DNA of 64,000 bases from Sulfitobacter albidus (lineage in GTDB: Bacteria; Pseudomonadota; Alphaproteobacteria; Rhodobacterales; Rhodobacteraceae), in contig NZ_CP073583.1 of NCBI RefSeq assembly GCF_018200035.1, forward strand, positions 23,587-87,586, in the 5' to 3' direction. Every line of letters begins with the position of its first letter. The stretch's first letter is position 1. This document shows positions 5,926 to 54,186 of the stretch, piece by piece. Made by a program: the position numbers and the translations under genes. The notes below the pieces were generated by a model. The model did no database searches. It saw only the letters and a list, made by a program, of their open reading frames with translations, and had not been told where the DNA came from.

Positions 5926-5934
5926 CGCCGGCGC

Positions 5935-6681
5935 CTAGAAGTTGAGGTTGAACACGCGGCTCAGCCCCACGCGGATCCGGAACTGATCGTCCGAGCCAAG
6001 CTGCGTCACCGGGCTGTCTCCGGCATCGCCGATCAGCTTTTCGTAGGAAACCGCGCCTTCGATCGCCCAGCGATCATCGAGATAGTACGCCCCCTGAACC
6101 TCGATGCCGGCCCCCAGCGCACCGCCGTCCGCGTCAAACGCGTTCAGCGACGATGTTGCCGCCTCCACGCCGCTGACACCGAAATAGGTATTGGCGTAAT
6201 CACTGTCGCCAAAATTCACCCGCGGTCCGGCGCTGATCACCCAACGCTCGGCGTCGCGGAAAATCACATCGGCGCCCAGCGTCCCGGTCACGCCCGAATG
6301 GCCGGTCACACCCTTGCGGACCTCACCAAACGCACGCCAGTTCGTTTGCTGGTATGTCAGACCAAGGCCAAGCTCCACCGCGGTGTCGATTTCATCGAGG
6401 GCTTCGATATCGCGACCGCCGATGACCTTGAACGCGCCCCGCACGCCAAACCCGTTTGCCGCAACACCCCGCACGCCGTTGCCCGCGCTGAAATTCCCCC
6501 ACCGCAGCGCACCGAAGGTAAAGCCAAGATCGGGAACCGCCTCGTAATCATCCGAGCCGGGATACTCCGGTGCCGCACCCACGCCGCCGCGCAGCGAGAA
6601 TTCGAATGATCGCTCCTGTGCCGCCACAGGCAGCGCCAACACCAGCGCCAGTCCCGTCGTCCCGATCAAACCAAACCGCAT
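5935..6681 (-). CDS. MipA/OmpV family outer-membrane protein
   Basis: 248 residues. The N-terminus MRFGLIGTTGLALVLALPVAAQ is a Sec signal peptide with an AxA cleavage site, which favours ATG 6681 over a longer in-frame start at 6732. The mature part starts with SFEFSLRGGVGAAPEYPGSDDY, the hallmark opening of MipA/OmpV proteins, and continues as alternating amphipathic beta strands with Gly/Asp turns. It ends in VFNLNF, an aromatic C-terminus recognised by the outer-membrane insertion machinery. MipA proteins have been described as scaffolds or envelope-stress porins; the function here is not deducible. It follows the TRAP operon by 102 bases on the same strand and precedes the nitroreductase. 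Confidence 0.88.
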   Translation of the reverse strand: MRFGLIGTTGLALVLALPVAAQERSFEFSLRGGVGAAPEYPGSDDYEAVPDLGFTFGALRWGNFSAGNGVRGVAANGFGVRGAFKVIGGRDIEALDEIDTAVELGLGLTYQQTNWRAFGEVRKGVTGHSGVTGTLGADVIFRDAERWVISAGPRVNFGDSDYANTYFGVSGVEAATSSLNAFDADGGALGAGIEVQGAYYLDDRWAIEGAVSYEKLIGDAGDSPVTQLGSDDQFRIRVGLSRVFNLNF

Positions 6682-6783
6682 TTTACGTACTCCAAACACA
6701 AAGCGGGAATCCCCCGCCGTTCGCACCACCATAAAGCAGGCTAAATCCTTCGTATACGGTGAATTTCATCCTTCACCGCTCCG

Positions 6784-8091
6784 TCATAGCCCGGGCAGCC
6801 ACAACGCGATCTGCGGAAAGACGATCAAGAGCGCCACCAGCAGCATCGAACAGGCCATATAGGGGATCGCCGCACCGTAGATCTCGCGCATGGTGGTATC
6901 CTTGGGGGCCACCCCTTTCATCACGAAGAGCAGCAGTCCGAACGGCGGCGTGGTAAAGCTGATCTCGAGCGCCAGCAGGATGATCAGCGCAAACCAGATC
7001 GGATCGAACCCCAGCGACAGCGCCAGCGGGAAGAAAATCGGCACTGTGAGCAACATCATCGAGATCTGCTCCATGAACATGCCCAACAGCAACAGCACCG
7101 CGAACATCACCAGCAGCATCGCAATCGGGTCCAGCTCGAACGAAGTGGCCCAGCGGATCAGACCCGACGATGCACCGGAGAACGCCAAAAGCTGGCTGAA
7201 CGTGGCCGAGCCGAAGACGATCAGATAGGCCATCAGCGTCACACGCAGGGCGCCGACGATGGATTTCTTCATCGCCTCCCAGCTCAGGCAGCGGAACACC
7301 ACCGCAAGGATCAGTACCCCCAGCGCGCCAAACGCCGCCGCCTCGGAAGGAGTGATCAAACCGCCCACCATGCCGATGACGATCAGAACCATGACCGACA
7401 GCATCGGCAGGATATCCTTGAACAGCAGCCCGAATTTCGCGCCCGTGCTCAAGGGCTCCACATCGTAGGCGGGCGCGGCGGAGGGATCAATCTTGGTCTG
7501 GATGTAAATCGTTGCGATGTAGAAACTCGCCAGGATCAACCCCGGAATGATCCCCGCAATTAGCAACGCGCCCACGTCGATGCGCGCCAATGTTGCCAGC
7601 AACACGGCCAACGCGGAGGGCGGGATGATGATCGCCAGCCCCCCGGTGCCCAGGATCGGACCGATGCTCATGTGTTTCTTGTACCCGCGCTGCGTCATCT
7701 CGGGCACCATCAGGCTGCCCAGCAGGGCGGTTGATCCCATGGACGATCCCGACAGCGTCGAAAACGCGGTGCCGCCCAACACGGTCACATAGCTCAGCCG
7801 CCCCGGCAGACGGCCCAACAGCTTGTCGATCGCGGTGAACATCCGCGCACCAAGCCCGGTATGGAAAAAGATCTCTCCCATCAGCAGGAACAGCGGGATC
7901 GGCACCAGCGCGAAATTCGTCAGACCGCCGAACCCGTTGTTCAGCATCAGGGTCACGCCCCGCGCGCCGCCCATGAAGAACCACGCGCCAATGATATTGG
8001 CCGCCAAGAACGCCAGCGCCACCGGCATCCCGATCGCCATCAAAACAAGGATAGAGCCGATCAGCAGGCCAAGCGCTTCGAACCATTCCAT
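6784..8091 (-). CDS. dctM: TRAP transporter large permease subunit (DctM family)
   Basis: 435 residues, extremely hydrophobic, with about 12 predicted membrane segments. Features typical of the DctM/TRAP-T large subunit include GGARGVTLMLNNGF, the PIPLFLLMGEIFFHTGL segment around residues 60-77, and SGSSMGSTALLGSLM with its small-residue helix kink. With the small subunit it forms the Na+-driven pore that receives substrate from the periplasmic binding protein. Its ATG overlaps the dctQ stop by one base (TAATG), so translation is coupled. It is the last gene of the run gntR-leuC-leuD-dctP-dctQ-dctM, all on the minus strand, which ties the transporter to the hydratase genes. Confidence 0.95.
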   Translation of the reverse strand: MEWFEALGLLIGSILVLMAIGMPVALAFLAANIIGAWFFMGGARGVTLMLNNGFGGLTNFALVPIPLFLLMGEIFFHTGLGARMFTAIDKLLGRLPGRLSYVTVLGGTAFSTLSGSSMGSTALLGSLMVPEMTQRGYKKHMSIGPILGTGGLAIIIPPSALAVLLATLARIDVGALLIAGIIPGLILASFYIATIYIQTKIDPSAAPAYDVEPLSTGAKFGLLFKDILPMLSVMVLIVIGMVGGLITPSEAAAFGALGVLILAVVFRCLSWEAMKKSIVGALRVTLMAYLIVFGSATFSQLLAFSGASSGLIRWATSFELDPIAMLLVMFAVLLLLGMFMEQISMMLLTVPIFFPLALSLGFDPIWFALIILLALEISFTTPPFGLLLFVMKGVAPKDTTMREIYGAAIPYMACSMLLVALLIVFPQIALWLPGL

Positions 8092-8612
8092 TACTCGTGA
8101 ATCCCCGCTTCGCCCGAATGCATCAGCTCTGCCCCAAAGACAAAGCGCGCAAACTCAATCGCCATCAGCCCGAAACTGATCGGGAAGGCGGCGGTCAGGA
8201 TCCACTTGGGGAAATAATAGGCGCGCACGTCCAGATCATTGCGCTCGATATTGGTGAGCATCAGCTCAAACCCCTTCCAGGCGAGCATCGCGCAGACCGC
8301 CACGCAGGTGATCGCCACGCCCCGGCTGACGATGCGCCGCGCCCCATCGGGCAGCGCGGCGGTTACCAGTTCGATATGCACATGGCCGCGTTCGCGCACC
8401 AACCACGGCGCGCCCAGCATCGTCATATACAGGATCGCGTATTCGCTTGAGGTGAACAGCCACGCAAACGGCTGCATCCCGAGGTTGCGCATCGTCACCG
8501 ATACCACGACCGAGATCATCAGCCAGACAAGCATCGCCCCCGCGATCCCCGCCATTGCGTATAAAACGCCGAGATAGAGCCTGTTTGCCGCCTGCATTCC
8601 GATCCCTCGCAT
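8091..8612 (-). CDS. dctQ: TRAP transporter small permease subunit (DctQ family)
   Basis: 173 residues with four hydrophobic segments, as expected for the small TRAP membrane subunit. The family signature MLGAPWLVRERGHVHIELV sits between the second and third segments (about residues 60-80). It partners the DctM protein and is needed for stability and coupling of the transporter. The start MRGIGMQAAN could also be at the inner Met6. It lies between dctP, with a hairpin in the 36-base gap, and dctM. Confidence 0.92.
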   Translation of the reverse strand: MRGIGMQAANRLYLGVLYAMAGIAGAMLVWLMISVVVSVTMRNLGMQPFAWLFTSSEYAILYMTMLGAPWLVRERGHVHIELVTAALPDGARRIVSRGVAITCVAVCAMLAWKGFELMLTNIERNDLDVRAYYFPKWILTAAFPISFGLMAIEFARFVFGAELMHSGEAGIHE

Positions 8613-8617
8613 GAAAT

Positions 8618-8641
8618 GCGCCGGAGGTTTCCCCCCGGCGC
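8618..8641 (-). terminator. Hairpin between dctP and dctQ
   Basis: An inverted repeat GCGCCGG / CCGGCGC (8618-8624 and 8635-8641), extended after one mismatch by two more G-C pairs, lies directly downstream of the dctP stop. There is no T tract, so it more likely stabilises or attenuates the mRNA. That would leave the binding protein in excess over the permease. Confidence 0.5.
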
Positions 8642-8648
8642 GATTGGC

Positions 8649-9647
8649 TTACTTGTCGTAGAAGAGCTCGATCAACTTGTCGTAGTTGTCAGCCCCCTGC
8701 GGCGCTTCCTCCATCAGACCTTTCATGCGGTCCCACGTCTTTTCGACAGCGGCGCCGAGGTAGGCATCGGCGGCCTCTCCCTCAAGCGTGACGACCTGCA
8801 TCCCGGCCTCTTCGAGTGCCGCAAAATCCTCGTCGCGCTTGGCGCCAAGGTTTTCAGCGGATTCAACCTCATGGGCGATGGCCACGTCCTGCACGATCTT
8901 GCGCGCCTCTTCCGACAGGCTGTCCCATTTTTCGAGGTTCACGATCACACCCAGATCGGTCGAGAAAAAGCACGGCTCGATCCGGTAGTTCAGAAACTCG
9001 TTCCACTTGAGGTCGATCAGGCCGATCTGTGTCCAGCCCGTCGCGTCCACCACGCCCCGCTCCAGCGCGGAGTAGACTTCGGTGGTGGGCAGGTCGATCA
9101 CCTGCGCGCCCAGATAGTCGGTAAAGAACGCGTTGTAGACCGCGTTGCCCCGCAGCTTCAGGCCGGAAACGTCGAGGTTGCCACCATCGTCCAGCGTCGG
9201 CTCGTCGCGGGTCCACAGGTTATAGCAGACACCGCTATCGAACCAGCCGAGGTATTTGACGCCCATCTTTTCCTGATGGATCTGGTCGATCAGCTCGATC
9301 CCGCCATTCTCGCGCGTCTCGCCAGCGGTCTTGTTCGACGTCACAAGCGCGTCCTTTTCGGGCAGCGCACCGGCGTAGAACGAACCCGGCGTATAGACCA
9401 TATCGACCACGCCGTTGCGCACCGCATCGGGTTGCTGGAACATGCCGATGGCCTCCGGCCCGCCGCGCACTTCGATCTGCACAACGCCTTCGCCCGCCGC
9501 ATTTACCTTGTCGACGAATTCGAGGAAGGATTTAGTGTAGATCAGGCTTTCGGGAAAAGCGTGCACCGCCGTGATCGTTTCCTGCGCGTAGGCCGTACCG
9601 GCAAGTGCTGTCGTGGCGAGGATCCCGCCGAAAATCGTGTGTTTCAT
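8649..9647 (-). CDS. dctP: TRAP transporter substrate-binding protein (DctP family)
   Basis: 332 residues. MKHTIFGGILATTALAGTAYA is a signal peptide ending in AYA. The mature protein shows the DctP fold: TITAVHAFPESLIYTKSF, then GGPEAIGMFQQPDAVRNGVVDMVYTPGSFY, and the hinge segment GLKLRGN. The arginine of that segment corresponds to the conserved TRAP residue that usually salt-bridges a ligand carboxylate. ALERGVVDATGWTQIG contributes the second lobe. A carboxylate-bearing ligand is therefore likely, but the compound is not identifiable. It lies 42 bases downstream of the leuD-like gene in the same operon, so the ligand probably enters the hydratase pathway. Confidence 0.93.
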   Translation of the reverse strand: MKHTIFGGILATTALAGTAYAQETITAVHAFPESLIYTKSFLEFVDKVNAAGEGVVQIEVRGGPEAIGMFQQPDAVRNGVVDMVYTPGSFYAGALPEKDALVTSNKTAGETRENGGIELIDQIHQEKMGVKYLGWFDSGVCYNLWTRDEPTLDDGGNLDVSGLKLRGNAVYNAFFTDYLGAQVIDLPTTEVYSALERGVVDATGWTQIGLIDLKWNEFLNYRIEPCFFSTDLGVIVNLEKWDSLSEEARKIVQDVAIAHEVESAENLGAKRDEDFAALEEAGMQVVTLEGEAADAYLGAAVEKTWDRMKGLMEEAPQGADNYDKLIELFYDK

Positions 9648-9689
9648 CTGGTCTTTCTCCCTGGTTTGGTGACGCTTTTGCGTCGGTCT

Positions 9690-10271
9690 TTAGGTTGCGG
9701 GCACTGCCCACGGATACGCCGCCACACGGGCGGCGGCAAACTCGGATATCTCGGCGTCGTGTTGCGCGGTCAGGTCAATATCGTCCCAGCCGTTCATCAG
9801 TTTTTCGCGCCAGACGGGATCAAGATCAAAGGCGACCTCCTGCCCCGCGATCACCGCCGTTCCGGCAGCAAGGTCAACACGGGCCTCGGCCCGCCCGCCC
9901 GCCAGCACGCTTTGTAGCTGCGCAATGGTCTCCGCATCGATCCGCGCGGGCAGCAGGCCGTTATTCACGGCATTGCTGGCAAAGATGTCGCCGAAGCTCG
10001 GCGCAAACACCGCGCGCACGCCAAAATCAACCAGCGCGTAGACCGCCGCCTCCCGGCTCGACCCGCTGCCAAAGTTGCGGCCCGCGACGATCACCTCGAC
10101 CGTACCGGCGTCCAGCGGATGCCCCTGCCCGCGCACATCATGCAGCAGGAAGTCCCCGTAGCCGTCCGCGCGCGGCTGCGACATGAACCGCGCCGGGATC
10201 AGCTGATCGGTGTCGATGTTGTCCTGCGCAAGTGCCACCGCCTGCCCCGTGATCTCATGCCAGCCGCTCAT
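9690..10271 (-). CDS. leuD: Aconitase-family hydratase small subunit (LeuD-like)
   Basis: 193 residues of the swivelling small subunit of 3-isopropylmalate dehydratase-type enzymes. [13 protein letters not shown] (about residues 17-29) and the substrate-gripping loop [13 protein letters not shown] (about 65-77) are both intact. The ATG overlaps the leuC-like stop (ATGA). The pair forms a heterodimeric [4Fe-4S] hydro-lyase acting on a 2-alkylmalate/maleate-type substrate. There is no leuA or leuB in the window; instead the gene is embedded between a GntR regulator and a TRAP transporter. A catabolic paralogue, as in citraconate or dimethylmaleate hydratases, is therefore more likely than leucine biosynthesis. 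The symbol reflects family, not proven role. Confidence 0.85.
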
Positions 10272-11658
10272 GCCCGCCCCTCCAACAAGGGGCGCACGTC
10301 GGTCAGATGCCCGGTGACGGCGGCGGCGGCGACCATGGCAGGGCTCATCAGATGGGTGCGCGCGCCGCGCCCCTGCCGCCCCTTGAAGTTCCGGTTGGTG
10401 GAGGAGGCACAGCGTTTGCCCGCTTCAACCAGATCGCCGTTCATGCCCACGCACATCGAACAGCCCGCATTCGCCCATTCCAGCCCCGCCTGCACGAATA
10501 TCTCTGCCAGCCCTTCGGCCTCGGCCTGTCGTTTCACTGCCGCAGAGCCGGGCGAGACGAGCCCCGGCACCCGCGCCTGCCTTCCGGCCAGCACCTTGGC
10601 CGCCATGCGCAGATCCTCGATGCGCCCGTTGGTGCAGCTGCCGATAAACACCTGATCCACGGCCACCTGCGACAATGGTGTGCCCGGTTCCAATCCCATG
10701 TATTCGAGCGCGCCGCGCGCGTGCTCCGCCTTGCCATCGGCCAGGGCTGACGGCTCTGGAACAGTCTCTGTAATGGGCAATGCCTCTTCAGGAGAGGTCC
10801 CCCACGTCACCGTCGGCGCAATCGCGGCGGCGTCGATCCGCAGCTCACGGTCGAATGACGCGTCCTCCTCCGAACGCAGTGACCGCCAGTCTGCGACCGC
10901 CGTGTCCCAGCTGTCGCCCTTCGGCGCAAACGGACGACCCTTGAGATAGTCAAACGTCACCTCGTCGGGCGCCACCATGCCGAGGCGCCCGCCCCTTCGA
11001 TGCTGAGGTTGCACAACGTCATGCGCCCTTCCATCGACAGCGCCCGAACGGCCTCACCCGCATATTCAATCGCGTGGCCCCGCGCGCCGTCGGCGCCCAG
11101 CCGCGCGATCCAGTGCAGCGCCATGTCCTTTGCCGTCACCCCCGGCGCGAGCGCAGCGTCAAAGGTGATCCGCATCGCCTTGGGCCGCTTTTGCCAGATC
11201 GTCTGCGTGGCGAGGATATGCGCCACCTCCGTCGCACCCACGCCAAAGGCAAGCGCCCCAAACGCGCCGTGGGTCGAGGTATGGCTGTCCCCGCAATTGA
11301 TCAGCAAACCGGGCAAGGTCAGACTCTGTTCCGGGCCAATTACATGCACGATCCCCTGTTCGGGATCCTTGAGGTCGAACAGACGTACACCGGTGGCGCG
11401 CGCATTTTCCTTCAGCGTGCGCATCATGCGGCGGATGTCGGCGGCGACCTCAACATCGCGCGTGGGCGCGTAGTGATCGACCACGCCAAACGTCAGATCG
11501 GGCCGGGCGACGGGCATTTCACGGCCTGCCAGCTTGGCGAAGGCGTGATGCGATCCCTCATGCACCAGATGCCGGTCCACCCACATCAACGAGGTCCCAT
11601 CCTCGCGGCGCAAAACCTCATGCGCATCCCACAGCTTATCCAGCAGGGTTTGGCTCAT
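10268..11658 (-). CDS. leuC: Aconitase-family hydratase large subunit (LeuC-like), one frameshift
   Basis: The large catalytic subunit, about 463 residues after repair. The upstream part (11658 down to about 10996) carries [15 protein letters not shown], the [17 protein letters not shown] segment and the first cluster-region cysteine context. The downstream part (about 10991 to 10268) resumes with [18 protein letters not shown] and includes [10 protein letters not shown] and GCSMCVGMN, which hold the three [4Fe-4S] ligand cysteines. The frames join at a C4 run on the plus strand (10992-10995). Adding one base restores [14 protein letters not shown] and a length divisible by three. The ATG overlaps the gntR stop (ATGA). 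All catalytic parts are present, so a sequencing under-call is more plausible than gene decay. Confidence 0.85.
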
Positions 11659-12470
11659 GCAGCGGCCTCCGGCACGGATGGCTTGATCACCGGCTCCCAG
11701 TGACGCCCCTCGCCCGCGCCGACCCGGCTCAGCGTCATCTCCAGCTTGAACATATCGGGGCGGTAGAGCGCGGAGAGGTATTCAACCCCCCTGCCCTGCG
11801 CGTCCCGCACCACCCGGTCCAGCGCCAACAGCGGCGCGCCGACGCTCAACCCCAGGTGCCCCGCCACATCCGGGGCGGCGAGCGTGGCGGTTACGCTTTG
11901 ATCCGCGCTTTCGACCTCAACGCCCGACCGTTCGAGCAGTCGGAAAAGCGGCGTCGTCGCCAGCTCTGCCTCGGTGTAGTTCTGCGCGATTTCTTCGGGC
12001 ACATAGGTCGTCAGATGCGAAAACGCACGATCCTCGATGAGCCGAAGGCGCACGGCGGTCTGCATGCGCGTGCCTGGCGCCACCCGCATGGCCTGCGCGA
12101 CACCGGCGGGCGGCGCGCCATAGCTGAACGACAAAAGCCGCGCCGTGGTATTGTCCCCCATCTGCGCGACCTGCGGCATCAATGTCGCAAAATCCGCGGC
12201 GACCCCGGGGATCGGGCCAGGGCGTTTGACCATCGTGCCTGCTCCCGCGCGCCGCTCCACCAGCCCTTCGCCCTCGAGCACATCAAGCGCGCGGCGCACG
12301 GTCACCCGGCTCACGTCAAGCGTCGCAGCAAGCCTTTGTTCACCCGGCAGCAGATCGCCCTCGGCGTGCACCCCCCGCGTGATATCGTCACGCAACTGCA
12401 AATAGACGCGCCGCGCCTTGCCTCCTTCCGGAAGCCCGCTAGTTGACCGATCAACGACATCACGTGTCAT
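11655..12470 (-). CDS. GntR-family (HutC/UTRA) transcriptional regulator
   Basis: About 271 residues from ATG 12470; a TTG two codons upstream (12476) has better ribosome-site spacing and could be the true start. Residues 20-85 form the winged helix-turn-helix with the GntR signature LPGEQRLAATLDVSRVTVRRALDVLEGEGLV. The remainder is a UTRA ligand-binding domain (RLRLIEDRAFSHLTTYVPEEIA region), which places it in the HutC subfamily. Such proteins usually repress adjacent catabolic genes until a pathway metabolite binds. It is the first gene of the leftward operon and faces the rightward operon across 145 bases, so it probably controls both and itself. Confidence 0.92.
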   Translation of the reverse strand: MTRDVVDRSTSGLPEGGKARRVYLQLRDDITRGVHAEGDLLPGEQRLAATLDVSRVTVRRALDVLEGEGLVERRAGAGTMVKRPGPIPGVAADFATLMPQVAQMGDNTTARLLSFSYGAPPAGVAQAMRVAPGTRMQTAVRLRLIEDRAFSHLTTYVPEEIAQNYTEAELATTPLFRLLERSGVEVESADQSVTATLAAPDVAGHLGLSVGAPLLALDRVVRDAQGRGVEYLSALYRPDMFKLEMTLSRVGAGEGRHWEPVIKPSVPEAAA

Positions 12471-12615
12471 GTACAATATGTCCTTCTTCTGATCTGGACG
12501 GTAGCGCAGAAAAACAAGATTGCAAGAAATCTATCTCTTTCCGAATACAAAATTGATCCTATGCTTATACGCTAAGCTGTACTATAGATAGTACCGGTTT
12601 GGAAAGGGAGATCCA
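12471..12615. promoter_or_regulatory. Divergent control region of the catabolic island
   Basis: This AT-rich 145-base region separates the two operons and must contain both promoters. It holds one perfect-armed inverted repeat, GTACTATAGATAGTAC at 12579-12594 (arms GTACTA and TAGTAC, spacer TAGA), placed 21 bases before the tautomerase start. That position suits repressor blocking of RNA polymerase, and the size suits a GntR/HutC dimer. TTGATC at 12553-12558 is a possible -35 element. AAGGGAG at 12604-12610 is the ribosome-binding site of the rightward operon. Confidence 0.55.
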
Positions 12616-13182
12616 ATGCCCGTGATCGAGCTACACGTTATCGACGGCTATACCGACGATGACAAATCCCGTCTTTGCGCGGTCCTCACCGACGCGGTGC
12701 GACTGGTTGTGCCTGCCCCACCCGATGCTGTCACCGTCCTGATCCACGAGGTCGCTGCGGCAGGATACATGCGCGGGCGTCAACACCGGACCCCTGCCCC
12801 GGCCCTGCCCGATCCGACTCAGGCCGTGCGCGCGTTTCTCGCCGCAATGGAGGCGCGCGAGATTGACCGCGCCCGCGAGATGCTCGGCGCGGGGTTTGTG
12901 ATGGAGTTCCCCGGCACCGGTCCGCTGCACCGCCTCGAAGACCTGATCGACTGGGCCAAGGATCGCTACCGATTCGTCACCAAAACCTACGAAGGATTTG
13001 ACGCGCTGCAATCGCAGGGCGACGCGGCCATCGTCTATTGCCGTGGCACATTGTCCGGCGAATGGCCCAACGGCACCGCCTTTGACGGCATCCGTTTCAT
13101 CGACCGGTTCGAGGTCACGGGCGGGCTGATCACCAAACAGGACGTCTGGAACGACATCGCAGAAATGAAGGATACCAAATGA
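12616..13182 (+). CDS. 4-oxalocrotonate tautomerase domain fused to a SnoaL-like (NTF2-fold) domain
   Basis: 188 residues in two domains. Residues 1-60 align without gaps to 4-OT: after removal of Met the N-terminal proline (PVIELHVIDG) is the catalytic base of the superfamily. The two substrate-binding arginines of 4-OT (Arg11, Arg39) are here Tyr and Thr, so the substrate or reaction must differ. Residues 68-185 resemble SnoaL/NTF2-like proteins: AVRAFLAAMEAREIDRAREML, a conserved EF-P-T-G stretch, and the strand pattern ending ITKQDVWNDIAEM. These folds catalyse isomerisation or hydration of small molecules. It starts the rightward operon and its stop overlaps the hyuB start (ATGA). I know of no characterised protein with this fusion. 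Confidence 0.82.
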   Translation: MPVIELHVIDGYTDDDKSRLCAVLTDAVRLVVPAPPDAVTVLIHEVAAAGYMRGRQHRTPAPALPDPTQAVRAFLAAMEAREIDRAREMLGAGFVMEFPGTGPLHRLEDLIDWAKDRYRFVTKTYEGFDALQSQGDAAIVYCRGTLSGEWPNGTAFDGIRFIDRFEVTGGLITKQDVWNDIAEMKDTK

Positions 13183-14874
13183 GCGCCGACATCGATCCCG
13201 TAACCCTCGCCGTCCTGGCGGGCCGCATGGAGCAGATCGCCGACGAGATGGACGCGACGCTTTTCCGTGCGGCGTTCAATCCGATCATCGCTGAAGCACA
13301 TGACGCCTCGCACGGGCTTTACCATGCGACGTCGGGCGATACGCTGGTGCAGGGCAAATCCGGTCTGCCGATCTTTGTCGGCGTGATGAGCTTTGCCGTA
13401 AAGGCGGTCATCGACAAGGCGGCGGAAAACGGCGATCTTGCCGATGGCGACGTCTATATCTTCAATGACGCGCATCTGGGCGGCACGCATCTAAGCGATA
13501 TGCGCCTTGTCAGACCCTACTTTCACGACGGAAAGCTGTTTTGCTACCTCGCGAGCGTCGGCCATTGGCACGACGTGGGCGGCGCGGTGCCCGGCAACTA
13601 CAACCCGGCGGCCACGGATGCCTTCCAAGAGGCGTTCGTGCTGCCCCCCGTGCGGCTGGTCAAAGGTGGCGAGACGCAGACCGACATCGTCGATATCCTG
13701 ATGCGCAACACCCGCCTGCCACAATCGGCCCAAGGCGATCTGAACGGCCAGCTTGGCGCGCTGGATCTGGGCGTCAAACGCATGGACGAGCTGCTCGCCG
13801 ACTACGGCGCCGACACCGTGCACGCGGGCCTCGACGCCCTGCAGGACCGCGCCGAAGCGCTGATGCGCGCCGAGCTGACGGATCTGCCCGATGGCCGCTG
13901 GGAGGCGGAGGATTTCCTCGACAACGACGGCATCACGGACGAGCCGCTGCCGATCCGTGTGGCCCTTGAGATCAAGGGCGACCGCATGACGCTGGATTTT
14001 GCGGGCACCGCGCCGCGCTGCGCGGGGCCGGTCAACATCGCCCTGCCCACCGCCGTCGCCACCGCCTATGTCGCGATCAAGCATATCTTTCCCGCGCTGC
14101 CCGCCAACGCGGGTGTGATGCGCCCGATTGACGTGAAAATCCCCGACGGCTCGCTGCTCTCGGCGCCCTTCCCCGCGCCCGTCGGCGGCTATACAGAGAC
14201 GATTTTGCGCATGATCGACGTGATCTTTGCCGCGGCATCGCATGCCGCCCCGAACGCGTCGTCGCAAACGCCTACGGCACGATCAACGCGCTCTCGATCT
14301 CGGGCACGCGCGAGAACGGCAGCCCCTGGGTCATGTTCAGCTTTTACGGCGGCGGCCACGGCGGATCGGTGGAAAGCGACGGGCTGAACCACGGGAACGC
14401 GCCGATTTCCACGGCCACGATCCCCCGATGGAGATTCTTGAGGCCGCCTATCCGGTGATGTTCAAACAATGGTCCCTGCGCCCCGACAGCGCGGGTGCAG
14501 GCAAGCATCGCGGCGGCATGGGCGCCACCTACGAGATCGAAGTGCTGGAAGGGAACGGCGCCAAGGCGTTCCTGTTCGGCGAGCGGGGACGCTACGCCCC
14601 CATGGGCGCACAGGGCGGTGGCGCGGGCGCGCTCAATGTCTTTTCGTATGAGCAATCTGATGGCTGGCACCACCCGCCCATGGCGTCGAAAATGGTGGGT
14701 ATCAGGCTCGAACAAGGGCAATCCGTGCGGCTCGACACCCCCGGCGGCGGCGGCTACGGCCCGGCGTCTGACCGCGCGCCCGAAGCGGTGGCACGGGACG
14801 TCGCCGCGGGATTTCTAAGCCCTGACAAGGCAGACGAGGACTACGGCCCGGCGTGGCAGGAGGCAGCACAATGA
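13179..14874 (+). CDS. hyuB: Hydantoinase/oxoprolinase family subunit B (HyuB), two frameshifts
   Basis: About 565 residues after repair. The N-terminal two-thirds read normally: DPVTLAVLAGRMEQIADEM, FNDAHLGGTHLSDMRLVRP and GDLNGQLGALDLGVKRM are typical Hydantoinase_B segments. At a C4 run (14248-14251) the frame shifts to one encoding ERVVANAYGTIN and FYGGGHGGS. At a C5 run (14422-14426) it shifts again to PPMEILEAAYPVMF, continuing to LDTPGGGGYGPASDR. Adding one C at each point restores a continuous family protein. With HyuA it would form an ATP-dependent hydrolase of a cyclic amide (hydantoin, 5-oxoproline, lactam) or a related carboxylase. It overlaps both neighbours by ATGA, indicating coupled translation. 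Confidence 0.88.
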
Positions 14875-16928
14875 GCAAGATGATCGGCGTCGACGTAGGC
14901 GGAACCTTCACGGATATCTTTGTGCTGGATGAGGCAAAGGGCGTGGCCGAAGTGGCCAAGGTGCCGACCTCCCGGCCCGACCAGTCGGCGGGGTTTCTGG
15001 CCGGGATAGGGTCGAAAGTGGACGATCTGTCGTCTGTGTCGGTCGTCGTGCACGGCACAACCGCTGGCACGAACGCGCTGTTGGAGCGTAAGGGTGCCCG
15101 CATCGGTGTCATCACCACCCAAGGGCTGCGCGACGTGCTGGAAATGCGCCGCCGCGACCGGCCCCGCACCTGGGGCCTGCGCGGGGATTTCACGCCCGTG
15201 GTCGACCGCGCGCTGCGGCTCGAAGTGTCTGAGCGGACGCTGGCCGATGGCAGCATCCGCACGCCCGTGGACATTGACGCCGTCACCACCGCCGCGCAGC
15301 AGCTCATTGACGATGGCTGTCTGGCCGTGGCGATCCTGTTTGCCAACGCCTACGCCAACCCCGAAAACGAGGCGAAGGCGGTGGAGGCCGTGCGCGCGAT
15401 GTGGCCCAATGAGCATGTCTCCTGCTCCTCGGAAATCCTGCCGGAAATCCGCGAATTCGAACGCTTTTCCACCACCGCGCTCAACGCCTATCTGCAACCC
15501 GAAGTATCCGGCTATCTGGGGCGTCTAGAGACTGCTTTGAAGGGCGATGGCTTTCAGGGCGAGTTCATGATCGTGCAGTCCAACGGCGGCGTGATGGATG
15601 TGGACACGGCGGCGAAACTGCCCGTGCGCACCGCGCTCAGCGGCCCGGCTGCCGGGGTGATCGCCGCGGGCTACATCGCGCAAGCGGCGGGTTTCCCCGA
15701 CATCATCACCGGCGACATGGGTGGCACCTCCTTCGACGTCTCCCTGATCGCGGACGGACACTCCATGCTGTCGCCGCAGACCTCGATTGATTTCGGCATG
15801 GTCGTACGCTCCCCGATGATCGAGATCACGACCATCGGCGCCGGCGGCGGCTCCATCGCCTGGGTCGACAAGGGTGGTCTGCTCAATATCGGACCGGAAA
15901 GCGCGGGCTCCACGCCCGGCCCCGTCGCCTACGGGCAGGGTAACACACGGCCCACGGTGACAGACGCGAACGTGGTTCTTGGCCGGATCGACCCGGAAAA
16001 CCCCATCGGCGGCAAGCTTGAGCGCCTCGACGTGGAGGCCGCCAAAGCCGCGATCCTCAAACACGTGGGCGATCCGCTGGGCCTAGACGCGCTCGCCGCC
16101 GCCGAAGCCATCCTGCGCGTCGCCAACAGCCGCATGGCCGGCGCGCTGCGCCTTGTTTCGATCGAGCGGGGGTTTGATCCCAAACGCTTTGCCTTCATGC
16201 CCTTCGGCGGCGGCGGCGCGCTGCATTCCGGCGCCATGCTGGCAGAGGTCGGGCTGGCCCGCGCCATCGTGCCCCGCTACCCCGGTGTGACCTCCGCCAT
16301 GGGCTGCGTCATCGCCGACATGCGGCAGGATTTTGTGCAGACGGTCAACGCCATGTTGGGCGGCCTCGACACCACCGCCCTGACCGAACATATGCAGCGC
16401 CACGTGGACAGCGGCCTTGCCACCCTCGACGCCGCCCGCACCACGTTCGAGGCACGCGAGACGGCCTTTACCCTCGATATGGCCTACGCGGGTCAGACCC
16501 ATACAGTCAGCGTCCCTCTACCCGTCACCGTGGACGCAGGCATCGTACAGGCCCCGACCGAGGAACAGATCGGCGCGGCCTTTGATACGACTTACCGCGA
16601 AACCTACGGGCGGCTTTTGCCAAATGGCGCACGCCGGGTGATCAACCTGCGCTCTGCCGTGACCGGCAAACGCCCACGCTTTGATCTGGCGACCCTCGCG
16701 CCCGAAGGTGGCTCCGTCGAAGGGGCGCTGAAAGGCACGCGGCAGGTGCACTTCGACGGCAGCTGGCATGAGACCCAGATCTACCGCAGGCTTGAGCTGC
16801 CCGTGGGCGCCGAAATCCCCGGCCCCGCGATCCTTGAGCAGCCAGACACAACCGTCCTGATCGAACCGGATCTTGTGGGCCGCATCGACAGCTACGGCAA
16901 CACCCTCATCGAGAGGAAAGCACCATGA
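14871..16928 (+). CDS. hyuA: Hydantoinase/oxoprolinase family subunit A (HyuA)
   Basis: 685 residues from ATG 14871, which overlaps the hyuB stop. The N-terminal Hydant_A_N domain opens with MIGVDVGGTFTDIFVLDE, an actin/hexokinase-type phosphate loop. VVHGTTAGTNALLERKGA and RRRDRPRTWGLRGDFTP follow. The central Hydantoinase_A domain has TGDMGGTSFDVSLI and TIGAGGGSIAWVD, the second phosphate and adenosine motifs. FMPFGGGGALHSGAML precedes the C-terminal domain. These are the motifs of the ATP-using subunit that phosphorylates a ring carbonyl before ring opening. The gene is intact. The substrate cannot be assigned from sequence; 5-oxoproline, hydantoins, lactams or cyclic imides are all possible. 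Confidence 0.93.
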   Translation: MSKMIGVDVGGTFTDIFVLDEAKGVAEVAKVPTSRPDQSAGFLAGIGSKVDDLSSVSVVVHGTTAGTNALLERKGARIGVITTQGLRDVLEMRRRDRPRTWGLRGDFTPVVDRALRLEVSERTLADGSIRTPVDIDAVTTAAQQLIDDGCLAVAILFANAYANPENEAKAVEAVRAMWPNEHVSCSSEILPEIREFERFSTTALNAYLQPEVSGYLGRLETALKGDGFQGEFMIVQSNGGVMDVDTAAKLPVRTALSGPAAGVIAAGYIAQAAGFPDIITGDMGGTSFDVSLIADGHSMLSPQTSIDFGMVVRSPMIEITTIGAGGGSIAWVDKGGLLNIGPESAGSTPGPVAYGQGNTRPTVTDANVVLGRIDPENPIGGKLERLDVEAAKAAILKHVGDPLGLDALAAAEAILRVANSRMAGALRLVSIERGFDPKRFAFMPFGGGGALHSGAMLAEVGLARAIVPRYPGVTSAMGCVIADMRQDFVQTVNAMLGGLDTTALTEHMQRHVDSGLATLDAARTTFEARETAFTLDMAYAGQTHTVSVPLPVTVDAGIVQAPTEEQIGAAFDTTYRETYGRLLPNGARRVINLRSAVTGKRPRFDLATLAPEGGSVEGALKGTRQVHFDGSWHETQIYRRLELPVGAEIPGPAILEQPDTTVLIEPDLVGRIDSYGNTLIERKAP

Positions 16929-17527
16929 CCCCCGACCGCACCGCCCTGCTGACGATTGATCTGCAAAACGATTTTCTGCACCCCGACGGCGCCTACGGCC
17001 GCGCGGGCCAGACGGCGGAGGCAATCACCGCCCTGCCCGACCGCATCGCGCCCGTGCGCGATGCGCTGGTGGCCGCCGGTGGCGTCTATATTTCGGCGCA
17101 GTTCACGTTGGTGCCGGGACGGGGCGGCGCGCCACTGATCGCCCCGCATCTGGCCAAGCTGCGCCCGTTTTTGACCAAGGGCGACTTTGCCCCCGGCGGG
17201 TTCGGTCACAGCCTCGTTGACCGCCTCGCCCCGGCCGATTTCACAGTGGAGAAAGTCGCCTATTCCGCCTTCTACCAGACCCGGCTCGAATACATCCTGC
17301 GCGCGATGGAGATCGATACGCTGATCGTCGGCGGCATCGTCACCAACGGCGGCGTCGCCTCGACCCTGCGCGACGCGCATCTGCGCAATATCCACACCTA
17401 CACGCTCACCGACGGATGTGCCGCGTTTGACATGTCGGTGCACGAGGCGACGCTCACATCGCTCGGCACCGTGACCGAAGCACTCACCTGCGGCGAGATG
17501 ATTGCCCGGATCGGAGAGGCATCATGA
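16925..17527 (+). CDS. Isochorismatase-fold hydrolase lacking the nucleophilic cysteine
   Basis: 200 residues of the isochorismatase/cysteine-hydrolase fold. The Asp of the triad is at residue 12 (LLTIDLQNDF) and the Lys at 110 (VEKVAYSAFY). The third member, a cysteine in T-N-x-C in amidases such as nicotinamidase or N-carbamoylsarcosine amidase, is Gly143 here (IVTNGGVAST). True isochorismatases also lack the cysteine, so the protein may hydrolyse an ether-type bond or act by another mechanism rather than as an amidase. The substitution is read directly from GGC codons at about 17350. The start overlaps the hyuA stop and the end overlaps the lyase start, both by ATGA. Confidence 0.87.
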   Translation: MTPDRTALLTIDLQNDFLHPDGAYGRAGQTAEAITALPDRIAPVRDALVAAGGVYISAQFTLVPGRGGAPLIAPHLAKLRPFLTKGDFAPGGFGHSLVDRLAPADFTVEKVAYSAFYQTRLEYILRAMEIDTLIVGGIVTNGGVASTLRDAHLRNIHTYTLTDGCAAFDMSVHEATLTSLGTVTEALTCGEMIARIGEAS

Positions 17528-18381
17528 GCCTGCGCACCCGCCTGCAAGACAGCGCAATCCTCACCGCCCCCGGCGTCTACGATGGGCTGACGGCCGCCAT
17601 TGCCACCGATGCCGGGTTCGAGGCGCTGTATCTGTCGGGCGCTGCCGTTGCCTATACGCGCCTTGGGCGGCCCGACATCGGGCTCAGCACCGCATCGGAA
17701 ATGGCCGATACCATGGCCCTGATCGCCGATCGCACCCCCCTGCCCGTCATCATGGATGCCGATACCGGATTTGGAAACGCGCTCAACGCCCGGCGCACGA
17801 TGCAAAACTATGAACGCGCGGGCGCTGCCGCCTTGCAGGTCGAGGATCAGACATATCCCAAACGTTGCGGGCATTTATCCGATAAGTCACTGATTTCATG
17901 CAATGAAATGGTCGGAAAGATCAAGGCCATGGTGGACGCGCGCCGCCACGACACCCTCGTGATCGCGCGCACCGATGCCATTGCCGTCGAAGGGTTCGAC
18001 GCCGCCGTTGACCGCGCGGGCGCCTATGTGAACGCGGGCGCCGATGTGCTGTTCATCGAAGCCCCCCGCGACCGCGATGAGCTCAGCCGCATCCCGCAGA
18101 CTTTCGGCACCCGCGTGCCTTTGCTCGCCAATATGGTCGAAGGGGGTGCGACCCCGATTTCCGAGACGTCCGATCTCGAAGCCCTCGGCTTCAGCATTGC
18201 TATCTTCCCGGGTGGGATCGTCCGCGCCTTGGCCAAGACCGCGCAGGACTATTACGCCAGCCTGCACGCCACCGGATCGAACCGCGCGTTCAAGGATCGG
18301 ATGCATGATTTCGACAGCCTGAACGATGTGATCGGCACCCGCGATATGCTCGCCCTCGGAGGTCGCTATGACGACGCCTGA
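17524..18381 (+). CDS. Isocitrate lyase/PEP mutase family lyase
   Basis: 285 residues of a TIM-barrel C-C lyase. APGVYDGLTAAIATDAGFEALYLSG (about 15-39) and the Mg-binding DADTGFGN (78-85) are typical of the PEPM/ICL superfamily. PKRCGH (112-117, Cys115) is the flexible-loop motif of the lyase branch (isocitrate, 2-methylisocitrate and dimethylmalate lyases), absent from phosphonate mutases. The likely reaction is retro-aldol cleavage of a 2- or 3-substituted malate into pyruvate or glyoxylate plus a carboxylate. Together with the LeuCD-like hydratase this recalls the dimethylmaleate-dimethylmalate-lyase steps of nicotinate fermentation. The exact substrate is inferred, not shown. It overlaps the FAD dehydrogenase by 14 bases. 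Confidence 0.88.
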   Translation: MSLRTRLQDSAILTAPGVYDGLTAAIATDAGFEALYLSGAAVAYTRLGRPDIGLSTASEMADTMALIADRTPLPVIMDADTGFGNALNARRTMQNYERAGAAALQVEDQTYPKRCGHLSDKSLISCNEMVGKIKAMVDARRHDTLVIARTDAIAVEGFDAAVDRAGAYVNAGADVLFIEAPRDRDELSRIPQTFGTRVPLLANMVEGGATPISETSDLEALGFSIAIFPGGIVRALAKTAQDYYASLHATGSNRAFKDRMHDFDSLNDVIGTRDMLALGGRYDDA

Positions 18382-19746
18382 GGTCGCAGCCCCCCTGCCC
18401 GCCTACGATCTGGAGGTCGAGACGCTGATCATCGGCGCCGGTGCCTGCGGCATGGTCGCGGCGCTGGCCGCCGCTGAGCGCGGTCAGGAGGTGTTGGTGA
18501 TCGAGGCCGATCCGGTACCCTCCGGCTCTACCGCGCTCAGCGCCGGGCTGATCCCAGCGGCCGGCACCCACTTTCAGCGTGAGGCCGGGATTGACGACAC
18601 CCCTGCCCTCTTTGCCGCGGACATTCAGGCAAAGGCCAAGGACGAAAACGATCCGGCCCTTGTCGATTCGCTTGCGACCCACGCGGGCGGGGTGATCGAG
18701 TGGTTGGCGCAGACCCACGGTCTGCCGTTTTCGGTTGTGCATGATTTTGACTATCCGGGACACAGCCGCCGACGTATGCATGGCCTGCCCTCCCGCGCGG
18801 GGCGCGAATTGGTCGATGCCCTGCGCGCGCGCGTCGAAGCATTGGAGATACCCCTGATCTGCGATCGCCGCGCAACCACCCTGCACGCGCAGGAAGACCG
18901 CGTCGATGGGGTAACCGTTACCCTGCCCGATGGAAGCCAAGAGACAATCCGCGCGGATCGTATAATCCTCGCCTGCAATGGCTTTGGCGGCAACCGCGCG
19001 CTGGTGGCCGATCACATGCCCGACATCGCGGATGCCGTGTGGTTTGGCCACGACGGCAATCGGGGCGAAGCGGTTCTGTGGGGCGATGCGCTGGGGGCGA
19101 AACAGCGCCACCTTGGTGCCTATCAGGGACACGGAAACGTGGCTCATCCTCACGGTATCCTGATCACCTGGGCCGTGATTGGCGAAGGCGGTTTTCAGGT
19201 CAACGCCGAGGGGCAACGTTTCTGGAACGAGGCACAGGGATATTCCGAGGCCGCGCGCAATGTGCTGGCTCAACCCGGTGGCATCGCCTGGAGCATTTTT
19301 GACGCCCGCATTGCCGAGGTCGCCCGCCAGTTTGAGGATTTCAAGGACGCCGAAGCGCAGGGGGCTATCCTGCGGGCCGATACACTGCATGACCTTTCGG
19401 AGGCCTGTGACCTGCCGCCGTCCGCTCTCGAAACGATCACGGATTCCCTGCCGGTGGAGGGTCCTGACGCCTTTGGTCGTCATTGGGCAAGCAAACCGCT
19501 GCGGGCATCGTTTCATGCGGTGAAAGTGACCGGCGCGCTGTTCCACACGCAGGGGGGCTTGAGATTGCGCCCGAGAGTGGGCGTGTCTTGCGGATGCAGG
19601 GCGGCGCCTTTGCGAACCTCTATGCCGCCGGGGGCGCCGCTTGCGGCGTATCGGGGAGCGGTGACAGCGGCTATCTCTCGGGCAACGGTTTGCTCGCGGC
19701 GGTGGTGTTGGGCTATCTGGCGGGCGGTCACGCGGTGGACAGGTGA
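18368..19746 (+). CDS. FAD-dependent dehydrogenase/fumarate reductase-type flavoprotein, one frameshift
   Basis: About 459 residues after repair. VETLIIGAGACGMVAALAAAERG near residue 18 is the dinucleotide-binding GxGxxG motif, followed by VIEAD for ribose binding. The middle section (GHSRRRMHGLPSRAGRELVDALRA) and ACNGFGGN match FAD_binding_2 proteins such as fumarate reductase, tricarballylate and 3-ketosteroid dehydrogenases. At a G6 run (19552-19557) the frame breaks; adding one G gives GGLEIAPESGRVL and the expected flavin-closing end GVSGSGDSGYLSGNGLLAAVVLG, with TGA at 19744-19746. It may introduce or remove a double bond in a succinate/fumarate-like intermediate (inference). It is the last gene of the rightward operon and converges on repC. 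Confidence 0.83.
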
Positions 19747-19752: not shown

Positions 19753-19768
19753 GTTGACAGCTGTCAAC
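19753..19768. repeat. parS: parS partition site overlapping the repC stop codon
   Basis: The perfect 16-base palindrome GTTGACAGCTGTCAAC matches the RepABC centromere consensus GTTNNCNGCNGNNAAC. It occurs again at 20964-20979 inside the cassette. This copy includes the repC stop codon (19764-19766 on the minus strand). Confidence 0.88.
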
Positions 19769-20918
19769 TTGGCACCTTTCTGTCTGACAACAGCGCCATG
19801 ATCATCGGTCCGGGAGAGAATGCCCCGCGGGCTGCTTTGCGCGTCAGAGCACGCAAGTATCCGCCCGGGCTTTTGATCTCACTGACACGTTGAAGGATTG
19901 CGGTTACGGTTGTTGCTGCGCTCATTGCACCCATCACGCGCACGGCCTCTTCCCAAGCATCTTTGGTGATCCCCATCATGCCCCTCACATGGCTTGCGGC
20001 GGCGATCAGACCATGCCAATGGCGGATTTCATCCCGTGCGTAGGGCGCAATATCCGGGCAGGCATTGAGTATGAGGCGCAAGGGTAGTTTCGGTTGTACG
20101 ACCTTCTCGGGATCGTTCTGGGATTCTGGCTCTTTCAAATCAGATAGATCTTTATTTGAATTCAGGTGGTGCCGCTCATTTTGGCTGTCACTGGCGCTCG
20201 AAATTGGTGTTTCCAAGGCGGCACAGATCGTCTCTAAATCCTGTTGCAGAGCCCTTTTGATCCGGGTCAGGGGAGCGATGCAGAGCTTGCGGCGCATTTG
20301 TTTTTGCAGCCCGTCGAGGGAGGTTTGAATCGAGGACCAATCGCCGGGAACACCTTCGCTCCGGGCATAGTCGCACAGCTTGATCGCATCACGCCGCAGG
20401 ACGGTGATTTCCGCGCGGAGGTGGCGCAATTCTGCGGCAATTGCGCGTGCCGTTTCGGCGGCGGTGATGATGTCCTGAGCGTGCACAAGAAGTGGGCGCA
20501 GATCGAAGCCGTAGGCGTGGATCACATCACCCCCGATCCCGCGCGCTGCGTAGCGCTTTCCGTTCGGACTGTCGCGCCGTTGAATCAGTCCGGCGGTTGT
20601 GAGGGCCGCGAGGTGGCGGCGCAGTGTGCTCTCCGCCATGCCGTGGGCGCGGTCCGACAAAGTCCTGTTCGACGGAAAGACGATCAGGGAGTCGCCATCG
20701 GATAGCTCCGTTTTGGGGTGACACGACAGCAGCGCGTTCAGCACCACAAGATCCCGGTCAGATACTGCAAAATCCTTCCGCGCAGTGGTGAGGTCTCGCA
20801 GGAGGGACCATTTGTCGATCCCTGTGACGCTGGTTGGTTGTTGTGCGGCCATTGCACGGTGCATCAGGCCAGCCGTCACCGGCCGCTGCCCGAAGGGCGT
20901 CGTTGCATTTACGTCCAT
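19764..20918 (-). CDS. repC: RepC replication initiator of a RepABC replicon
   Basis: 384 residues. The N-terminal winged-helix DNA-binding part has KWSLLRDLTTARKDFAVSDRDLVVLNALLSCHP and the recognition stretch SNRTLSDRAHGMAESTLRRHL, which are characteristic of alphaproteobacterial RepC. A coiled, Arg-rich middle (ETARAIAAELRHLRAEITVLRRD) is followed by a polar linker rich in Ser/Asn/Glu (HHLNSNKDLSDLKEPESQND). The C-terminal domain includes RDEIRHWHGLIAAASHVRGMMGI. RepC is the limiting initiator and acts at an origin inside its own gene. No good ribosome-binding site precedes the ATG at 20918, which fits control by the antisense RNA and leader structure upstream. Confidence 0.95.
   Translation of the reverse strand: MDVNATTPFGQRPVTAGLMHRAMAAQQPTSVTGIDKWSLLRDLTTARKDFAVSDRDLVVLNALLSCHPKTELSDGDSLIVFPSNRTLSDRAHGMAESTLRRHLAALTTAGLIQRRDSPNGKRYAARGIGGDVIHAYGFDLRPLLVHAQDIITAAETARAIAAELRHLRAEITVLRRDAIKLCDYARSEGVPGDWSSIQTSLDGLQKQMRRKLCIAPLTRIKRALQQDLETICAALETPISSASDSQNERHHLNSNKDLSDLKEPESQNDPEKVVQPKLPLRLILNACPDIAPYARDEIRHWHGLIAAASHVRGMMGITKDAWEEAVRVMGAMSAATTVTAILQRVSEIKSPGGYLRALTRKAARGAFSPGPMIMALLSDRKVPS
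20125..20170. other. oriV: Candidate origin of replication (oriV) inside repC
   Basis: Within the otherwise GC-rich repC lies a markedly AT-rich segment (TTTCAAATCAGATAGATC and neighbouring bases) encoding the polar linker. In RepABC replicons the origin maps to such an AT-rich stretch in the middle of repC. Exact boundaries are a guess. Confidence 0.45.
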
Positions 20919-20963
20919 AGATTTTCACAAAGACAAGTTTTTTGGCCCGCAGGACATGCGGCT

Positions 20964-54181: not shown

Positions 54182-54186
54182 GCGCG

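Follow-up and report, generated by a model that had tools for sequence, protein, structure and literature searches.

Layout and conservation of the cluster

We analysed a stretch of 64,000 nucleotides (the window) from Sulfitobacter albidus contig NZ_CP073583.1, positions 23,587 to 87,586, in which twelve genes form two divergent operons that flank a 139-bp gap between a GntR-type regulator gene and a tautomerase-SnoaL fusion gene. The leftward operon runs GntR, LeuC, LeuD, DctP, DctQ, DctM, and the rightward one tautomerase-SnoaL, HyuB, HyuA, an isochorismatase-fold protein (IsoC), a lyase and a flavin adenine dinucleotide (FAD) dehydrogenase. We tentatively read this cluster as a complete uptake and degradation pathway for a carboxylate-bearing substituted cyclic imide, most likely hematinic acid or its dihydro form. 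The contig is 87,586 bases long, and the cluster probably sits on a repABC plasmid, because genes for RepC and RepB lie immediately to its right (19764–22012, minus strand). A 472-codon frame after these (22002–23420) could encode RepA. Positions are those of the window, and loci and genomes are cited by our own L and G numbers.

6784–8091, minus strand: TRAP large permease DctM (PF06808, 1.5e-79; TIGR00786 above cut-off)
8091–8612, minus strand: TRAP small permease DctQ (PF04290, 8.4e-24)
8649–9647, minus strand: TRAP solute-binding protein DctP (PF03480, 2.2e-25; nearest solved structures 4mnc/4mni, 3.4e-51 to 4mnc)
9690–10271, minus strand: LeuD-like hydratase small subunit (PF00694, 3.4e-20; TIGR00171, 135.1 bits, cut-off 116.25)
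10268–11658, minus strand: LeuC-like hydratase large subunit (PF00330, 2.9e-69 for the N-terminal piece; frame break at a CCCC run, near 10993)
11655–12476, minus strand: GntR/UTRA (HutC-like) regulator (PF07702, 1.8e-31; PF00392, 5.3e-19)
12579–12594, unstranded: candidate operator in the divergent promoter sequence, inverted repeat GTACTA-N4-TAGTAC
12616–13182, plus strand: tautomerase-SnoaL fusion (PF01361, 4.3e-08; PF12680, 2.1e-09; AlphaFold2 model, mean pLDDT 91.1)
13179–14874, plus strand: HyuB (PF02538, 1.4e-117 on the N-terminal piece; two frame breaks at C runs)
14871–16928, plus strand: HyuA, ATP-dependent hydantoinase/oxoprolinase subunit (PF01968, PF05378, PF19278; 448.8 bits to N-methylhydantoinase 7hk5; start at GTG 14853 or ATG 14871)
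16925–17527, plus strand: IsoC, with Gly at the catalytic-Cys position (PF00857, 1.6e-28)
17524–18381, plus strand: methylisocitrate-lyase-like lyase with the motif KRCGH (PF13714, 3.9e-42; TIGR02317 prpB, 291.5 bits, cut-off of 354.4 not reached)
18368–19746, plus strand: fumarate-reductase-type FAD dehydrogenase (PF00890, 2.1e-44; frame broken at a GGGGGG run, 19552)

Pfam and NCBIfam thus bear out the twelve genes and families that an earlier note had read from the sequence at this place. Its near-complete ATGA-type coupling holds for eight of the ten within-operon junctions, which overlap (by 1 nt once, by 4 nt six times and by 14 nt at lyase/FAD), but not for DctQ–DctP and DctP–LeuD, which are 36 and 42 nt apart. 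The Fe–S ligand motifs GSCTN and GCSMC are visible in the LeuC-like protein. The ligand of 4mnc/4mni is presumably benzoylformate; a literature search gave no confirmation of this, and it is not used as evidence here.

Three of the window's genes, leuC, hyuB and the FAD gene, are out of frame through four breaks (leuC near 10993; hyuB at about 14228–14249 and 14422–14443; the FAD gene at about 19552–19570), which the earlier note had overlooked. All four lie on C/G runs of 4–6 bases, the background being a C/G run of at least four in 6–17% of 10–22 bp stretches. Compared with a genus-mate, three of 41 genes on the chromosome of the same genome are frame-broken, likewise on C/G runs (genes aligning at at least 55% identity and at least 70% coverage, the rest being dropped), and indel errors at homopolymers seem to be present in the assembly outside the window too (chromosome loci L229–L231). 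Among 40 relatives, the genes are open in every locus in which both halves were found (leuC 37/37, hyuB 38/38, FAD 34/34). Because the breaks fall on C/G runs, the chromosomal ones are alike and the relatives are intact, the four are probably sequencing errors. They are denser in the cluster (four in 13 kb) than in the chromosomal genes (three in about 43 kb), and one gene may be genuinely damaged. This density is what speaks for an operon in decay; set against the C/G runs and the intact relatives, it leaves a pseudogene operon, or a LeuCD that serves leucine synthesis only, very unlikely. We reject the latter role in view of a full-length leuC on the chromosome (C1:3300698–3302089, 790.8 bits), in line with the earlier note, which had given LeuCD a part in the degradation pathway.

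When named genomes were scanned with IsoC, 350 matches were confirmed, and the best 80 of them make up our named loci. The twelve genes stand in identical order and orientation in 52 of these 80, and the arrangement is therefore far beyond chance; HyuA occurs in 79, the lyase in 78 and HyuB in 76. Within the family, 80 of 394 genomes gave a match to the fusion protein (E<=1e-10); the window genome is among the 80, and many weaker matches cover the SnoaL part only. In 40 family loci drawn from these 80 genomes, co-located matches (E<=1e-8, within one stretch of 20 kb or shorter) were found to HyuB in 38, to LeuC and the lyase in 37 each, to HyuA, IsoC and LeuD in 36 each, to FAD in 35, to GntR in 34 and to DctP in 27; the 40 overlap partly with the named loci (L060/L097, L032/L093), L060 repeating the L097 record. 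IsoC itself (E<=1e-45) has a match in 26 of the 385 genomes scanned at class level and in 8 of the 398 scanned at phylum level, both counts taking in the window genome. Thirteen of 25 further class loci (L182–L206) have another type of LeuCD (423/168 aa in L069) beside lyase–HyuB–HyuA–IsoC, and L200 and L205 have IsoC without HyuAB. The set is rearranged in distant genomes and in plasmids of Azospirillum, Roseomonas, Neorhizobium and Paraburkholderia, and is split over two loci in Tistrella-type genomes; Liv-type ABC genes replace the TRAP importer in several loci and in the same four groups of plasmids. At the limits applied, none of the fusion protein, IsoC and the lyase has a match in the genus-mate G055. 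The neighbourhood comparison in Rhodobacterales that had been proposed thus found the genes together, both operons are kept as one divergent catabolic unit with its GntR regulator, and the HyuAB-family ring opener, LeuCD-family hydratase and isocitrate lyase/phosphoenolpyruvate mutase (ICL/PEPM)-family lyase recur as a fixed set.

Some loci depart from this pattern. In L132 (Jannaschia sp. LMIT008) HyuB and HyuA form a single 1269-codon reading frame (6189–9998), and a lyase match was not found in the locus. The stretches obtained from G302 (L050/L207) yielded TRAP genes, GntR and a tautomerase-SnoaL match that has a TGA inside it, and no match to the other cluster genes. In L201, HyuAB-IsoC is flanked (at 2500–5932 and 13459–16231) by genes for two family-III CoA-transferases and for cyclase-family, MmgE/PrpD and arylmalonate-decarboxylase-family proteins, perhaps a sister pathway for another substrate. 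Nitroreductase-family and MipA-family genes lie next to the cluster in the window (5251–6732, minus strand) and beside it in the relative L031. Genes of the aminotransferase, 3-hydroxyacyl-CoA dehydrogenase and opine-dehydrogenase families (L093, L117, L151), which might have pointed to other chemistry, had matches in only five to seven loci and were set aside.

The inverted repeat TGTAT-N8-ATACA occurs in 40 of 98 GntR/tautomerase intergenic regions, any repeat reaching at most three in each of 20 shuffles; the 98 regions come from related, partly repeated loci, and the comparison does not give a probability. The window promoter lacks the exact repeat and has the related GTACTA-N4-TAGTAC listed above. 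The repeats support control of both operons from one site.

A glutaryl-CoA module in related clusters

In the Tistrella-type loci L184 and L186, two genes between IsoC and LeuC encode an acyl-coenzyme A (CoA) dehydrogenase and a CoA-transferase, and the same pair is present on plasmid pTM2 of Tistrella mobilis. The L186 dehydrogenase scores 622 bits to human glutaryl-CoA dehydrogenase (GCDH) 1sir, with the catalytic-region segments GYRSAMSVQSS and NTYEGTHD aligned, and that of L097 scores 591 bits to GCDH 3gnc and 704 bits to 4w9u. The best NCBIfam family of the CoA-transferases is succinate-glutarate CoA-transferase NF052585 (533–546 bits, the next family 295–300; for L186, 537 and 295). A gcdH gene of this kind is present in 12 of 79 named loci (L092, L095–L101, L113, L114, L119, L137; L134, shorter than 5 kb, is left out of the count and L100 ends at a contig end) and, among the 40 family loci, in L059 and L060. 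The CoA-transferase gene follows it in ten of the 12 and in L060, and does not in L095, L100 and L059; in L183 the transferase gene stands without the dehydrogenase beside IsoC. CoA-transferase-family genes of L201 and L132 are only 30–39% like the L186 copy and were not counted.

In some relatives the pair is built into the operon. In L097 the frames, taken from their first possible starts, overlap from FAD (11464–12855) to GcdH (12848–14062) to CoA-transferase (14062–15216); they do so likewise in L119, and the FAD and GcdH frames overlap in L101. Genomes G371, G425 and G553 have two gcdH copies (E<=1e-90), the second lying elsewhere than the cluster, and G376 and G638 have one. We rooted a tree of 28 sequences, some of them repeats of one record, at its midpoint. 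The cluster copies of Rhodobacterales form one group with that of one Cohaesibacteraceae, separate from five chromosomal copies, and the Tistrella-type copies stand apart from both; this suggests that gcdH was recruited to the cluster at least twice. The chromosome of the window genome yields a gcdH match and two candidate CoA-transferases.

Lyases of the ICL type cleave HOOC-C(OH)(R')-CH(R)-COOH to a 2-oxoacid and R-CH2-COOH. Because a glutaryl-CoA module is built into the operon in some relatives, we take glutarate for the second product of this cleavage, and therefore R for CH2CH2COOH; that glutarate is a main product of the pathway is, in our judgement, quite likely. Several results weigh on the other side. 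The PDB entry nearest the L097 dehydrogenase, 4w9u, is labelled only acyl-CoA dehydrogenase; the L186 enzyme scores 237 of 600 bits as FadE, below the NCBIfam cut-off, and 215.1 bits against a cut-off of 470 for the Desulfo-type glutaryl-CoA dehydrogenase model, which we take to describe another branch. The transferases lie below the NF052585 equivalog cut-off of 750, hence the suffix -like used here, and their nearest PDB entry, 4ed9, is labelled only CAIB/BAIF; for L186 a formyl-CoA transferase entry and then a succinate-hydroxymethylglutarate CoA-transferase come after it. In the stretches examined, gcdH was not found in 67 of the 79 named loci, and six of the 12 that bear it form one tight Marivita-type group.

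This narrow distribution, six close relatives making up half of the bearers, would suit some other imide, a lactam or a hydantoin, the general proposal of the earlier note, with the glutarate genes as incidental neighbours; HyuAB families do act on many cyclic amides. The operon overlap, the second gcdH copies and the separate gcdH lineage are hard to reconcile with such an explanation, which we regard as distinctly unlikely.

Enzymes, substrate and proposed route

The NCBIfam family closest to the lyase, in distant clusters as well, is prpB (methylisocitrate lyase), although the score given above keeps the window protein from being filed as PrpB. Among orthologues of nearly full length that reach 50% identity or more, the rest being dropped, KRCGH is present in 133 of 139 and KKCGH in the other six. 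PrpB residues F186, L234 and P236, which we take to mark enzymes that form pyruvate and not glyoxylate, have F177, I227 (a conservative change) and P229 as their aligned counterparts in the window lyase; by pattern, the F177-type residue occurs in 134 and I-P in 137 of the 139, and two pattern misses also read IFP. The hydratase is of the LeuCD family, as the earlier note had it, but the note had not foreseen that an MmgE/PrpD protein can stand beside or replace LeuCD. In Neorhizobium such a protein takes the place of LeuCD, none being annotated in the stretch seen; in Roseomonas it lies at the LeuCD place, with leuC divergent from the regulator gene. In Tistrella-type genomes the first locus holds HyuAB, IsoC, GcdH, CoA-transferase and LeuCD, and the second (L247) GntR, Liv ABC, MmgE/PrpD, lyase, tautomerase-DUF4440 (the DUF4440 part below cut-off), FAD and racemase genes. 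No 2-methylcitrate synthase is among the annotated genes of L239–L244 and L246, no specific search for one having been made.

Set against a methylisocitrate-type reaction, the window lyase scores almost the same in the PDB against phosphorylmutase 4iqd (197 bits) as against methylisocitrate lyase 1o5q (199 bits); for the distant L069 lyase the closest entries are 4iqd and petal death protein. Glutarate, moreover, leaves the methyl group unfixed, and cleavage of homoisocitrate to glyoxylate and glutarate would fit too. A substrate without the methyl, of the (2-carboxyethyl)succinimide or -maleimide type, could thus be opened, hydrated to homoisocitrate and cleaved, and the glutaryl-CoA module would suit it equally. 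A variant LeuC above the homoaconitate-hydratase-family cut-off (TIGR01343, 433.7 bits, cut-off 385.7) and MOFRL/DUF4147 genes beside LeuD in L131 and L151, which we take to be of the glycerate-kinase type, point the same way. The lyase and the alternative hydratase are, however, of methylcitrate-cycle type, and we know of no abundant natural imide with this skeleton; we consider such a substrate unlikely, if still worth keeping in view. The dimethylmaleate or citraconate that had been proposed for assay would presumably yield propionate or acetate, not glutarate.

HyuA is nearer N-methylhydantoinase (449 bits) and 5-oxoprolinase (348) than carboxylases (at most 315), a leaning that would suit a hydrolase acting on an imide. 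For an imide as substrate it is awkward that, among named families, HyuAB comes closest to caprolactamase and N-methylhydantoinase, the caprolactamase equivalog cut-offs not being reached. With caprolactamase the nearest named family and the glutaryl-CoA module in some relatives, HyuAB might open 2-piperidone or glutarimide and glutarate come directly from the opened chain; but the twelve genes include no aminotransferase or semialdehyde dehydrogenase and the hydratase and lyase would be left without a role, so that we give this very little credence.

IsoC has the fold that had been assigned to it, but its lack of the catalytic Cys had gone unnoticed. Among orthologues of at least 45% identity, drawn from 153 partly overlapping loci, that position is Gly in 148 of 149 and Ala in one; DLQND is present in 131 and EKV in 143. 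Public annotation nevertheless labels the protein cysteine hydrolase. Maleamate amidohydrolases use a catalytic Cys, and its absence tells against an amidase role for IsoC. The Gly or Ala there resembles the state in isochorismatases of the EntB/PhzD type, whose active site we take to be Asp-Lys-Gly, and isochorismatases hydrolyse a vinyl ether. One possible explanation, then, is that the substrate is a larger tetrapyrrole-derived pyrrolinone (for example the propionate-bearing BOX C, or a dipyrrole), its lactam opened by HyuAB and the resulting enamine hydrolysed by the Cys-less IsoC. Larger pyrrolinones such as BOX C are described as occurring beside hematinic acid in the part of PMC7318184 that bears on this. 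The core set has no obvious gene for the oxidation or removal of the extra carbons, and in Paraburkholderia the core as annotated is without any redox gene; we hold such a substrate to be improbable.

Of 108 fusion-protein rows whose alignment begins at the N-terminus, 107 have Pro after the start residue, the Pro1 of 4-oxalocrotonate tautomerase, and 107 have Tyr at the position that we take to be Arg11 of that enzyme. PF14552 (Tautomerase_2) is the wrong family for it, with no match in the genome. The FAD dehydrogenase is fumarate-reductase-like, its L036 orthologue being nearest fumarate reductase 1qo8, and weaker matches include tricarballylate dehydrogenase. The Paraburkholderia cluster is without an annotated FAD gene, and a dehydrogenase for saturated substrates only would fit this. 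Asp/Glu/hydantoin-racemase-family genes recur in or beside the cluster (L136 1879–2676, L151 12814–13590, L243 14066–15492, L247 12070–12894) as optional members; an epimerase role is a guess. These three, the FAD, tautomerase-SnoaL and racemase genes, have no proven place in the route and are absent from some clusters, which counts against a complete account.

Hematinic acid is 3-methyl-4-(2-carboxyethyl)maleimide, a ring fragment from the decay of chlorophyll and heme that is left by the oxidation of chlorophyll and bilirubin. A maleate that carries R' = CH3 and R = CH2CH2COOH is opened hematinic acid, and this structural fit makes the imide or its dihydro form our leading, though still tentative, candidate for the natural substrate. 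What we observed is the gene content, its conservation, the glutaryl-CoA module of some relatives and the missing Cys; the substrate and every reaction of the route are inferred, the steps given to IsoC and to the FAD and tautomerase-SnoaL proteins being the most conjectural. Our current working hypothesis is that the imide would be imported by the TRAP system (Liv-type ABC in other lineages) and opened by HyuAB to the amic acid at the expense of ATP. Disubstituted maleic derivatives re-close readily, and ATP-driven opening would be useful for that reason. IsoC may then help to release ammonia, the neighbouring carboxylate replacing the missing Cys nucleophile; such assistance is known for disubstituted maleamic acids. 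The FAD dehydrogenase would form the maleate from a saturated (dihydro) substrate, and tautomerase-SnoaL, together in some lineages with an Asp/Glu-racemase-family protein, might adjust the double bond or the stereochemistry. LeuCD or MmgE/PrpD would hydrate the 2-methyl-homoaconitate-type acid to 2-methyl-homoisocitrate, which the PrpB-like lyase would cleave to pyruvate and glutarate. A succinate-glutarate CoA-transferase-like protein and glutaryl-CoA dehydrogenase could finally take glutarate to crotonyl-CoA, through genes inside the operon in some relatives and the chromosomal candidates in the window genome. The order of import, opening, hydration and cleavage is that of the earlier note, and the conserved enzyme set agrees with it; the glutaryl-CoA module, which points to glutarate, had escaped it.

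To our knowledge the final consumption of chlorophyll's pyrrole fragments is poorly understood. With its specific prediction, imide in and pyruvate, glutarate and ammonia out, the gene set opens the fate of these fragments to testing in marine and soil bacteria that can be cultured; it would also supply a function for genes whose present annotations read leucine biosynthesis, hydantoinase and cysteine hydrolase. Widespread mineralisation of hematinic acid, as a monopyrrolic end product of chlorophyll and bile-pigment oxidation, in alpha- and betaproteobacteria, with methylcitrate-like end steps one carbon longer and a Cys-less, substrate-assisted IsoC amidase, is a broader possibility that we put forward with reserve. 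In its passages on these matters, PMC7318184 puts chlorophyll turnover at about 10^12 kg per year, reports hematinic acid in leaves as an oxidation product of chlorophyll and cites it from lake sediments. Against a tetrapyrrole origin, no tetrapyrrole-degrading genes were seen among the annotated neighbours, no search having been aimed at them, except for a ferrochelatase-family gene near one cluster (L117) that is apparently incidental. No description of this pathway was found in the open-licence papers searched, in keeping with the earlier view that the gene set is not a described one. Riboflavin catabolism, with no hydantoinase, isocitrate lyase, isochorismatase, tautomerase or isopropylmalate in the main text of PMC12746152, is not this pathway.

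Other window features and known systems

Elsewhere in the window, a 6239-codon open frame (23295–42014, plus strand), whose first 1000 and last 1099 residues match DUF7507/DUF11 repeats, resembles a giant, repetitive protein that is secreted or surface-borne. A catalase-peroxidase-type gene (2024–4267, minus strand; PF00141 in two stretches) lies next to a LysR-type regulator gene (4302–5213, plus strand), and adjoining genes for a family-5 solute-binding protein, a LysR regulator and an amidohydrolase (52444–56861) are perhaps another uptake-and-hydrolysis unit.

Parts of the cluster resemble several known systems. The 2-methylcitrate cycle ends with hydration by PrpD/AcnD and cleavage by PrpB to pyruvate and succinate. 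The cluster shares with it a hydratase and a PrpB-like lyase that are predicted to act on a methyl-branched tricarboxylate, with MmgE/PrpD in some lineages; it differs in a predicted substrate one CH2 longer, in glutarate as product, in the imide opening joined to these steps and in a lyase below the prpB cut-off. Nicotinate fermentation ends with the dimethylmaleate hydratase DmdAB and then dimethylmalate lyase, and here too a LeuCD-family hydratase precedes an ICL/PEPM-family lyase, a cluster variant LeuD falling in the LeuD/DmdB family (TIGR02087 above cut-off); the twelve genes, however, include no mutase or enamidase, and the predicted product is glutarate rather than propionate. With N-methylhydantoinase, 5-oxoprolinase and caprolactamase the cluster has in common the HyuA and HyuB families of ATP-dependent cyclic amide hydrolases, although its HyuAB lies below the caprolactamase cut-offs and is predicted to act on an imide. 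Aerobic nicotinate degradation uses the maleamate amidohydrolase NicF, which has the isochorismatase fold and an amic acid substrate such as we propose for IsoC, whereas IsoC has Gly or Ala in place of the catalytic Cys of NicF and of the RutB Cys type. Finally, part of the clusters carry the same kind of CoA-transferase and glutaryl-CoA dehydrogenase pair as glutarate and lysine degradation, but with a cluster-tied gcdH lineage apart from the chromosomal one and a transferase below the equivalog cut-off.

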